The notes under the pieces: generated by a model
The model's input: the letters and a program-made list of their open reading frames with translations, nothing else
The model's database searches: none
Told to the model about the DNA's origin: nothing
Translations under genes and position numbers: made by a program
Shown: in pieces, positions 23,599 through 26,267 of the stretch
Numbering within the stretch: position 1 is the first letter of the stretch
How the letters are laid out: each line of letters starts with the position of its first letter
Assembly (NCBI RefSeq): GCF_900166655.1
Contig: NZ_FVZB01000006.1
Span: forward strand, 1,178,001 to 1,242,000
Reading direction: 5' to 3'
Origin: Halobacillus hunanensis
GTDB lineage: Bacteria > Bacillota > Bacilli > Bacillales > Halobacillaceae
Length of the DNA: 64,000 nucleotides

Positions 23599-23715
23599 CT
23601 CAACATCTACCTTTCATACCTGAAAAACACCCTACTTATTGCCAAACTGCTTTTTCAATAAAGTAAATCGTTTACTTTTATGTATTGTTCTCATACTTTG
23701 TATAAATTCGTCGAT

Positions 23716-23729
23716 ATTTCCCGGGAAAT
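23716..23729. promoter_or_regulatory. Perfect 14-bp palindrome ATTTCCCGGGAAAT
   Basis: Lies between the divergent TauE/SafE gene and the 81-residue Cys-rich protein gene. It could bind a dimeric regulator. No known box is recognised. Confidence 0.35.
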
Positions 23730-23823
23730 GTCCGCCAAAAATTTTCACCTTTCTGAGTTTATCTGCTATTTTTTGTATAATCAGACAATAGTTGTACAAA
23801 ATATAATCCTGGAGGTGATCTAT

Positions 23824-24069
23824 ATGAATCCTTATCTATGTCCAAACTGCAAGACAAATCGCTCGAGGTTTAATAAAATCAAACAACTTTCTACTGCTGT
23901 TCAACTTGATCCAAGAACTGGGGAAGTATTAACGGAATGTGGCAGCGGGCAATTAGCTTCCTTCCATATGGATTATAGAGGTCCAGAGTATAAAGTGCAA
24001 TGTGGGGTATGTGGGTTGATTGAAGATGAAAGAACTTTTCTTGCTTTCGCAGAACATAATCCATTATAG
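23824..24069 (+). CDS. 81-residue protein with two CxxC pairs
   Basis: Begins MNPYLCPNCKTNRSRFN and contains a second pair CGVCG near residue 60, plus one lone Cys (TECGSG). Two CxxC pairs suggest a zinc ribbon. The start is set by GGAGGTGATCTAT before the ATG at 23824; the frame continues upstream for 48 codons without a better site. The family is not recognised. The gene ends in a perfect hairpin and stands alone between a transporter and the ParM cassette, so context gives no function. Confidence 0.75.
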   Translation: MNPYLCPNCKTNRSRFNKIKQLSTAVQLDPRTGEVLTECGSGQLASFHMDYRGPEYKVQCGVCGLIEDERTFLAFAEHNPL

Positions 24070-24098: not shown

Positions 24099-24140
24099 GG
24101 ACTCAGTCCATCATTCTGAATAGATTAGTCCGCGAATTTG

Positions 24141-24170
24141 AAAAACCAAAAGCTGCGATAGCTTTTGGTT
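24141..24170. terminator. Terminator of the parM-parR operon
   Basis: AACCAAAAGCT / AGCTTTTGGTT, perfect 11-bp stem; on the minus strand it is followed by TTTTT, six bases after the ParR-like stop. Confidence 0.88.
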
Positions 24171-24175
24171 GATTT

Positions 24176-24772
24176 TCATCTATTCATACTCGAAAGAAAG
24201 TCATCCAGCATGCCTTCTTCTTCCTCTTCTTCATTTTCTTCCGACTTTTCTTGATGTAATTCATCCTGGAGACTGTCTAAGTTTAAATCACTTATGTCGT
24301 TGTCATCATACTCCACAACTTCTTCTTCCTCTTCTTTACGCTCTTCTTGAAATTCTGCTTCTTTCGCACTTTCATCTGACGTAGTCGCAGCCGTTTCCTC
24401 TTGAAGAAATAAAGCTTCATTGATGTCTACAGCATTGCTGTTTAAGGAAGCCAGCAGACTCATGGCCCTTGTTGGATCTATCATAAGCTGATAAATAATG
24501 CTTCCCATAAGCGCTTCTGAGTGTTCATGTTTGATCCAGTTTCGTTGTTCTTTTGTAAGTTTTCGAGGCAAAGGGATTGTGACGGTTTCCTTATCCTTTG
24601 AGATCGTTGAGCTGACTCCGTCCATAACATATTGGGCAATCTTACTGGAAAAATTCCTCCGCTCTTTTTCTTTTAGATCAGAAAGACTTTTCAATATATG
24701 ATCGGGCGTGTCAGAAGGGACACGGAATGTAATGGATTGTCCCCTCTCCACGCTTTTTTTGGCATTACTCAT
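24176..24772 (-). CDS. ParR-like ribbon-helix-helix adaptor of the ParM cassette
   Basis: A 198-residue protein directly downstream of the ParM gene (gap of nine bases, AAGGTGATTGA before the ATG). The N-terminal QSITFRVPSDTPDHILKSL, then EKERRNFSSKIAQYVMDGV, has the beta-strand/two-helix pattern of ribbon-helix-helix ParR/StbB proteins that bind the centromere. The second half is very acidic and low in complexity (runs of Glu, EEEEEVVEYDDND) and ends LDDFLSSMNR; in ParR the C-terminus is the part that contacts ParM filaments. Overall sequence is divergent, so the ParR assignment rests on position and the N-terminal pattern. Confidence 0.6.
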   Translation of the reverse strand: MSNAKKSVERGQSITFRVPSDTPDHILKSLSDLKEKERRNFSSKIAQYVMDGVSSTISKDKETVTIPLPRKLTKEQRNWIKHEHSEALMGSIIYQLMIDPTRAMSLLASLNSNAVDINEALFLQEETAATTSDESAKEAEFQEERKEEEEEVVEYDDNDISDLNLDSLQDELHQEKSEENEEEEEEGMLDDFLSSMNR

Positions 24773-24781
24773 TCAATCACC

Positions 24782-25954
24782 TTACTTTGATGATGAGGCA
24801 GTTTCGGTTTTCTTATCGACTTTCTCAGATTTACGCACAAAGTCAGAAATGAGTTTGTAATACGCATTGGCCATCATCCAAATGCTTTCATCTTCATCTT
24901 CAAAAAAGTCAATGTTGAAGCCATCCAGCTTGTTGTTGAGGGTCTTGATGTAGTCTTTAAGTACTGCAGAACCTCCGCCGACAAAATAGCAAATCTCGGA
25001 CTGAGAATTCTTCTGCCAAACGTTTCTTAAAAAGCGGTACTGTTTCTTAGCGAGTTCGAGCAGAATACGGTCTGTAATATCATGAACACTTGTACGACTA
25101 CCTTTAACCATAATGTGATGACGATCATTTTTTCGGGTAATAATATCTACCACATCACGACGACTATCCAACTCTACTCCATGTTTTGTTAGAATTTCAT
25201 CCCTTATCTGTTCCAGTGATTCAGATACTCCCAAGTTATAGCCTTGAGCCTTATCATCATCAACATTTCTATTTCTGATGACCGCAATATCTGTTGATAG
25301 ACCACCAATGTCTTGTATGAGAATTTGTTTATCAATAAGCTCCTTATTGGTAATCTTCAAGTCATTATCCATAACAAGATTAACAAACGCAGCAAATCCT
25401 TCTGGATAAACCTTGACTTCATCAAATTTAATATTTACTTTCATCCCCTGATATTGGGGTGTTACTAGAAATTCTACTTGGTGAACGGAACCGAGCAGCT
25501 GGGAACGATAACCTACGTCCTTTCCTTCTTTCACTTCTCGTAATGGTAACCCTGTACCCAATGTATAGTTTGCATCTACTACGTTATTCTTGGAGGATTT
25601 AGCATCCTTATTTGATACAGCGTCTAACGCTAGAGAAGCAAACAGCATAACCAATGTCTGATCTTCTTCCGATTTACTGCTACCTGGATCTAGTTCGGTA
25701 GAATTATCACTTTTAGCAGCCAGATTTCCCACACGATAAATAGCGTTATTTTCATCTAAAGCAGGTGAGTGCACTCTAATATGTATATTATCAAGCGGGT
25801 CTTTATCGTCTAATTCTTCAATCCCAATAACAGGACGGTCTTCCAAGTCTCTAGCCATAACGTTAGGGATGTATAACTCAGATTCCAGTTTCCCGAAGTT
25901 TGCTTTTACTGCATCATTGCCTACATCAACAGCAGCAATTCTTGATTTTGTCAT
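24782..25954 (-). CDS. ParM/StbA-family actin-like ATPase
   Basis: A 390-residue actin-fold protein. Seen are phosphate 1 IAAVDVGNDAVKANFG, phosphate 2 IQDIGGLSTDIAVI and the adenosine motif CYFVGGGSAVLKDYI, in order and at normal spacing for ParM/StbA (plasmid ParM is about 320; the extra length is mainly an early loop near residues 60-110 and the C-terminal tail). Such proteins form dynamic filaments that push DNA copies apart through ParR bound to parC. AAAGGAGAGATTTAA precedes the ATG. The gene lies among housekeeping genes, so the cassette is chromosomal or on an integrated element. Confidence 0.88.
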   Translation of the reverse strand: MTKSRIAAVDVGNDAVKANFGKLESELYIPNVMARDLEDRPVIGIEELDDKDPLDNIHIRVHSPALDENNAIYRVGNLAAKSDNSTELDPGSSKSEEDQTLVMLFASLALDAVSNKDAKSSKNNVVDANYTLGTGLPLREVKEGKDVGYRSQLLGSVHQVEFLVTPQYQGMKVNIKFDEVKVYPEGFAAFVNLVMDNDLKITNKELIDKQILIQDIGGLSTDIAVIRNRNVDDDKAQGYNLGVSESLEQIRDEILTKHGVELDSRRDVVDIITRKNDRHHIMVKGSRTSVHDITDRILLELAKKQYRFLRNVWQKNSQSEICYFVGGGSAVLKDYIKTLNNKLDGFNIDFFEDEDESIWMMANAYYKLISDFVRKSEKVDKKTETASSSK

Positions 25955-26013
25955 TTAAATCTCTCCTTTTATTCAAATGGCAGGTTACTAGAAATAACCT
26001 AACTCTACTATCA

Positions 26014-26042
26014 AACATATTAAAGTTCTTCTTAATAGTCAA
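26014..26042 (-). promoter_or_regulatory. Promoter of the parM-parR operon
   Basis: On the minus strand TTGACT (26042-26037) and TATGTT (26019-26014) are separated by exactly 17 bases, about 60 bases upstream of the ParM ATG. A small AGGTTA/TAACCT hairpin lies in the leader. The repeat field starts immediately upstream of the -35, so a bound ParR could repress it. Confidence 0.7.
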
Positions 26043-26052
26043 TGCGCCATTT

Positions 26053-26213
26053 TATGCATTCTTTTACGTACACTTGCGTGCAAAATTGTTTTCTTGCAAT
26101 CTATTTTGCAAGCAAGTTGTTAAACCAGTTTGTATTCAATTTTGCATACTTGCAAACATTTTTGAGTACTCGTTGCATTCATAATGTTTTCTTGTGTGCT
26201 TTTTTGTGTGCTT
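26053..26213. repeat. parC-like repeat field upstream of parM
   Basis: An AT-rich stretch with repeated motifs. ACTTGCGTGCAAAAT (26072-26086) is an inverted repeat of ATTTTGCAAGCAAGT (26103-26117) with one mismatch in 15; ATTTTGCA recurs at 26139 next to ACTTGCAA; TGCATTC occurs at 26055 and 26174; TTGTGTGCTT is repeated 12 bases apart at 26192 and 26204. The field is bounded by the methyltransferase terminator and the parM promoter. Its position and repeat content match a ParMRC centromere (parC), where ParR binds an array of short repeats. Confidence 0.55.
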
Positions 26214-26226
26214 ATTATATTGACAC

Positions 26227-26267
26227 ATAAAAAATCCGAACTGATTTCAAAAGATATTGTCCGGATT
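26227..26267 (-). terminator. Terminator of the rRNA methyltransferase gene
   Basis: On the minus strand AATCCGGAC and GTTCGGATT form a 9-bp stem (one G-U) followed by TTTTTT. Confidence 0.8.

Follow-up and report, generated by a model that had tools for sequence, protein, structure and literature searches.

ParABS (Soj/Spo0J-parS) and RacA are DNA-binding adaptors tied to the origin region. For type II (ParMRC) partition, the accessible part of a review describes ParR as a DNA-binding head plus a tail that holds ParM, and as forming a superhelix with one parC iteron bound per dimer, the repeats being 10 bp (PMC5016525). Chromosomal ParM/ParR pairs have already been published (Dh-cParM1, Cb-cParM, and Bt-cParM; J Biol Chem 2025; PMC12270681). 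Insofar as the available portion of that article covers them, cParM is strongly conserved within Desulfitobacterium and several Bacillus, a small cparC serves as the binding site of Cb-cParR, no conserved cparC was found among Clostridium strains, and the cParMR genomes, or related ones, also carry ParA/ParB genes; the cellular function is unknown. Under the words searched, its main text makes no mention of the replication origin, bar one reference title. In filamentous cyanobacteria, FcmB/FcmC come from a plasmid partition system, are chromosomal, and set cell shape; according to the sections of that report open to us, nucleoid distribution in the mutants shows no obvious change (PMC12645912).

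We analyzed a 64,000-nucleotide stretch of the Halobacillus hunanensis genome (the window) in which a similar gene pair lies among ordinary genes. On the minus strand, nine bases separate a parM-like actin ATPase gene (24782 to 25954; 390 amino acids [aa]) from the parR-like adaptor gene (24176 to 24772; 198 aa) that comes after it, an order and orientation that we re-derived from the sequence as claimed in an initial annotation. Upstream of parM, on the same strand, are a σA-type promoter (TTGACT-17-TATGTT; 26014 to 26042) and, beyond it, a parC-like array (26055 to 26211) of 12 sites of the form GNNN(A/G)CA, with steps mostly of 12 and 8 bp. The terminators annotated at both ends correspond to two terminator-like hairpins of the minus strand, each with a T run after it: one 3′ of parR (24144 to 24170; folded stretch 24130 to 24180, z −4.4), the other separating the array from the methyltransferase gene upstream (26233 to 26267; z −2.4). 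When 13 window proteins were scanned against Pfam, the 11 other than the cassette pair proved to be housekeeping, regulatory, transport, or unclear, in keeping with the housekeeping surroundings first described, and none was a mobility gene. Between a TauE-type transporter gene and parR, the plus strand has a small gene (23680 to 24069) whose short product contains two CxxC pairs and gave only weak rubredoxin or zinc-ribbon matches in Pfam. We think it somewhat better than an even bet that the cassette is a chromosome-held type II (ParMRC) system, passed on by vertical descent, which serves as an origin-proximal positioning device with a centromere-like site. The initial annotation had offered three options for what is positioned; we favor the chromosome, consider an integrated element unlikely, and regard something other than DNA as possible.

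The identification of the first gene as an actin-like ParM ATPase held up. Its product matches Pfam Alp7A_like_C (121 bits), with MreB-like_C and ALP_N also above the cutoff, as well as PHROG 691 “partition protein” (E 8.5e-41), and it contains DVGND, DIGGLSTD, and GGGSAVLK, which we take to be nucleotide-site motifs. The sequence alone gave no useful match in the PDB; a profile built with its plasmid relatives matched the solved pCBH ParM (E 1.3e-12) and, by this route only, Dh-cParM1 (E 5e-6). An AlphaFold model was unusable (pLDDT 47.6), probably because the 40 alignment rows are 82 to 92% identical to the first. Among the named loci in our tree, Halobacillus andaensis has the closest ParM (92%). 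None of the relatives from 76 plasmid records reaches 60% identity, and the best near-full-length row stands at 43.8%. A second, distant actin-like gene occurs elsewhere in many relatives (31 rows, including G020:C1:3671380-3672333; 21 to 30% identity), and no match to it was found in the window's own genome.

FcmB and FcmC, being plasmid-derived, chromosomal, and shape-setting, set a precedent that counts against our explanation, in that by analogy a chromosomal ParM/ParR pair may serve cell shape and a non-DNA role stays open (PMC12645912, as far as accessible). ParM and ParR could thus act on shape, envelope, or other cargo, with the array a mere autoregulatory operator. The window ParM does match the FcmB family (NCBIfam NF052678), weakly and far under that family's cutoff (28.2 against 300 bits). 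We hold this repurposing to be doubtful but live; the number of sites and the place of the cassette, described below, also speak against it.

The parR-like product had no Pfam family above the cutoff, no NCBIfam match, no meaningful PDB match, and no match to the RHH family. The ribbon of a ribbon-helix-helix fold requires a dimer; our monomer model, a weak one (pLDDT 63.4), has an extended stretch followed by helices at residues 24 to 36 and 41 to 59, with no strand assigned. The first ∼100 residues match the product of the gene 3′ of parM on all seven plasmids fetched (E 9e-29 to 7e-14; best identity, 42%). An alignment of 40 members (the window plus 39 of 80 named loci) shows conservation at both ends of the protein, in the N-terminal part and in the final ∼12 residues, where the motif is L-x-(D/G)-F-x-x-x-M-N, and variation in the acidic stretch between them. 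Judged from sequence conservation, this pattern is the plan described for ParR, a putative head plus a putative ParM-holding tail. In one genome without this ParM, a very weak ParR-like stretch with an internal stop (G021:C15:22216-22575; E 9.8e-4) is possibly a relic or a chance match.

The repeat field annotated upstream of parM was recovered in relatives as well as in the window, where the 12 sites compare with 2.7 expected. Across 81 upstream regions of 270 nt each, the expectation is 163 sites per strand; we counted 809 on the parM strand and 673 on its complement. Distances between sites peak at 8, 12, 20, and 42 bp, the first three being dominant. The N positions are not fully free. Since the pattern was picked after a short-word count in the same regions, these counts are partly after the fact, and the spacing and the whole-genome search described below are stronger tests of the array. 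The initial annotation would have been refuted by relatives that keep the two genes without the repeats. In 80 of 81 loci, the 330 nt next to parM contain the array, and as many upstream regions exceeded twice the expectation with z >2; in the exception (L053), the array is displaced ∼200 bp further upstream. That locus, from Oceanobacillus jordanicus, has ∼200 bp of extra sequence between the array and parM (L053:5558-5970). The 450 nt before parM were the richest site stretch of the locus in 71 of the 77 loci long enough to test; in three of the remaining six, they tied with a stretch upstream. Together, the gene pair and the conserved array support the parC-parM-parR reading, and an array period of ∼20 bp with two sites fits, by analogy, a ParR superhelix. 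Counted over the same 330 nt, sites number 3 to 5 in seven plasmids, and their median across the 81 chromosomal loci is 10. An operator alone should not require about 10 to 12 sites, as it would if the pair had been repurposed as a cytoskeleton.

Support for the annotated σA-type promoter is mixed. The motif is present, and 43 of 81 loci have TTGAC 50 to 170 nt ahead of parM, compared with 8.7 expected from letter shuffling, but the promoter scan by itself was not above chance (9 found, 11.0 expected).

A loose pattern modeled on the window matched twice in the window's own genome, both times in this array; because a reversed control also matched twice, that search by itself proves little. A strict three-site pattern with at most one mismatch matched 25 times in 58 whole genomes, and all 25 matches sit 102 to 279 bp upstream of parM, in 15 of 38 ParM-positive genomes. 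There were none in 20 ParM-negative genomes and none for the reversed control. The strict pattern also failed to match in the other 23 ParM-positive genomes, so a degenerate second array is not excluded there; at the patterns used, no second array was found.

The position of the cassette relative to dnaA bears on both its chromosomal status and its cargo. We searched for dnaA in 40 genomes and computed a distance for 37, in every one of which parM lies on the same contig as dnaA, on its left side, and on the opposite strand, at 37 to 325 kb (median, 127 kb); the chromosomal status inferred in the initial annotation is thereby upheld. A few of these distances depend on contigs that are incomplete or on a length that was rounded. 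Three genomes (G205, G210, and G374) were excluded because the dnaA match was incomplete at a contig start; each has parM at a high minus-strand coordinate, which fits the side seen elsewhere, although the distance is unmeasured. In another genome, dnaA is in two overlapping pieces (G006:C1:2713193-2714514), which suggests a frameshift or an assembly error. As for the comparison across relatives that had been proposed as a check, the cassette's side of dnaA is constant even though its neighbors vary, no family beyond parM/parR being common to more than 28 of 81 loci within 6 kb (some loci are incomplete), and no mobility gene appeared among the few neighbors scanned. Given this nearness to the origin while neighbors change, and the lack of a detected second array, we regard the origin region as the likely cargo. 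A repurposed cytoskeleton would not lead one to expect an origin-proximal place in 37 of 37 genomes. Against the linkage argument, gene order is partly conserved anyway: a control gene near the cassette, an M20 dipeptidase, stays in this zone in 11 of 11 family genomes. Outside the family it is there in 1 of 13, which favors the linkage. This control is small, a single gene matched in 24 of 36 genomes, and its distant matches (51 to 72%) are perhaps not all orthologues.

A recently integrated plasmid or mobile-element remnant would account for the family resemblance to plasmid loci and for the absence of the cassette from 196 of the 397 sampled genomes of the order. It is at odds with the constant side of dnaA and with the vertical pattern described next; moreover, cassette GC content (0.39) is close to that of the window (0.42), there was no match to phage records, and the neighbors scanned included no mobility gene. 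We therefore set this origin aside as highly improbable.

In the order, 201 of 397 sampled genomes, from 55 of 135 genera, match ParM at an E value of 1e-50 or better. Because the listed E values of all 201 are 1e-190 or better, we take these to be the chromosomal kind; identities among the matches listed are 77 to 97%. Of 101 genomes, 62, including the window's own, have both parM and parR with identities of the chromosomal type. A contig search confirmed 441 relatives, of which the best 80 were studied with the window; both genes are present in 81 of 81 loci. One of them, from a record titled Chryseobacterium sp. ISL-80 (L079), has a Bacillaceae cassette at 83% identity, and that genome is probably mislabeled or contaminated. 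In a class-wide draw, 43 of 398 genomes matched ParM at an E value of 1e-40: 24 at ≥76% identity, 8 of them outside the order in two further families, and 19 at 29 to 44%. All 23 loci fetched from the former set carry ParR and 7 to 14 sites; six fetched from the latter have 0 to 4 sites and none of the 8-, 12-, or 20-bp spacings.

ParM is nearly as conserved as DnaA, and its divergence matches that of DnaA. Among 27 genomes, mean pairwise identity was 0.827 for ParM and 0.844 for DnaA, with ParM exceeding DnaA in 103 of 351 pairs; the two identity matrices agree (r = 0.864; 0 of 5,000 permutations). In the ParM tree, a branch with 100/100 support sets the 36 chromosomal rows apart, and the branches among them are short; the midpoint root divides the stem between them and the plasmid rows into lengths of 3.12 and 0.91 changes per column. 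That root is for drawing only, since the tree is unrooted, and the plasmid rows carry a long-branch warning. The cassette probably reached the chromosome by one transfer from a plasmid lineage, the direction being an inference. Chromosomal ParR and array might instead act on plasmids, by titrating their related partition systems or by helping them in trans, an idea to which the ParR N-terminal domain and the site type shared with plasmid relatives lend something. The long branches between chromosomal and plasmid rows speak against such exclusion or help, which would also leave the origin linkage unexplained, and we find it very unlikely.

No more than 20 kb from dnaA, the window genome has genes of the ParB, ParA, and Noc types, the first two of which we call Spo0J and Soj from their family and position. 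Three sites resembling parS, each with one mismatch or none, are also near dnaA; the window itself contains no parS consensus even when two mismatches are allowed. In this genome the cassette therefore exists alongside ParABS and is not the only segregation system. This coexistence, and the 196 of 397 genomes that do without the cassette, weigh against our explanation.

All 201 ParM-positive genomes carry SpoIIE (201 of 381 SpoIIE-positive genomes), compared with none of 16 SpoIIE-negative ones (Fisher P = 9e-6). The 16 represent only seven genera, for which the genus-level chance is roughly (80/135)^7, or about 0.03, and we treat the restriction as suggestive only. It raises a special case of the positioning device that we favor, not exclusive of it, in which the origin would be captured or tethered in the forespore beside RacA and ParABS. 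RacA is equally absent from the SpoIIE-negative genomes (0 of 16), which is consistent with this role; on the other hand, non-spore formers may just have lost more genes, the promoter resembles the σA type, and ParM shows no link to the presence of RacA (P = 0.75). We judge a dedicated sporulation role unlikely on present evidence. The same lack of association among the 381 SpoIIE-positive genomes led us to reject replacement of RacA, that is, mutual exclusion with ParM: RacA is present in 131 and absent from 70 ParM-positive genomes, and present in 114 and absent from 66 ParM-negative ones. These counts rest on one of several RacA models at an E value of 1e-6, so they include weak hits, some of which may be other MerR-type proteins. 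Only 10 of 397 genomes were above the cutoff of this B. subtilis-type model; all 10 lack ParM and are presumably B. subtilis relatives, by inference.

Should the cassette position the origin, as we favor, ParR dimers would bind the 8/12-bp array beside the promoter and from there repress the parMR operon. The bound dimers would present their C-terminal tails, these would hold the end of a ParM filament, and ATP-driven growth or shrinkage of the filament would move or anchor the origin region; whether sister origins are pushed, or the origin is tethered at the poles or midcell, cannot be distinguished from these data. DNA binding, autoregulation, polymerization, and force on the chromosome are all inferred without experiment. 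We rate as about evenly balanced the broader proposition that a second, actin-driven system for segregating the chromosome or positioning its origin, whose centromere-like array lies on the origin-proximal left arm, is a stable chromosomal feature of about half of the sampled Bacillales (201 of 397 genomes) and was overlooked because B. subtilis relatives lack it. In many Bacillus-like bacteria, then, a plasmid-type actin DNA mover on the chromosome may help to move or anchor the chromosome itself. The clade is a good test case, with slowly changing ParM and ParR, a conserved array, and a near-origin place in every genome measured; because there are genera with and without the cassette, Halobacillus being among the carriers, the question of whether a ParM-type actin moves a bacterial chromosome becomes directly testable.

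We did not find a widespread, vertically inherited, origin-linked, array-bearing clade of this kind, spanning many Bacillales families, described in the open-licence literature searched; Bt-cParM of B. tropicus remains uncompared. With the published cParMR pairs, the cassette shares a chromosome-borne ParM with an adjacent ParR and the additional presence of ParA/ParB genes (PMC12270681, in the part available), but the window ParM is related to Dh-cParM1 only at the profile level (E 5e-6). Like FcmB/FcmC, the cassette is probably a plasmid partition pair of adjacent genes taken over by a chromosome; those proteins, however, act on cell shape, and the window ParM misses their family cutoff (28.2 of 300 bits). 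ParABS and RacA resemble the cassette in combining a DNA-binding adaptor, putative in the cassette, with a link to the origin region, whereas the cassette uses other ATPase and DNA-binding families, is accompanied by ParABS, and occurs independently of RacA. Plasmid ParMRC systems of Bacillaceae and Paenibacillus, such as that of pBM69, have the same parM-parR order, ParM family, ParR N-terminal domain, and type of upstream site. They differ in a ParM at most about 44% identical to the chromosomal one, a shorter ParR with another C terminus, 3 to 5 sites instead of a median of 10, and the long branches that set their rows apart; and, unlike usual type II partition systems, the cassette is not plasmid-borne but chromosomal, on the dnaA contig in 37 of 37 genomes.
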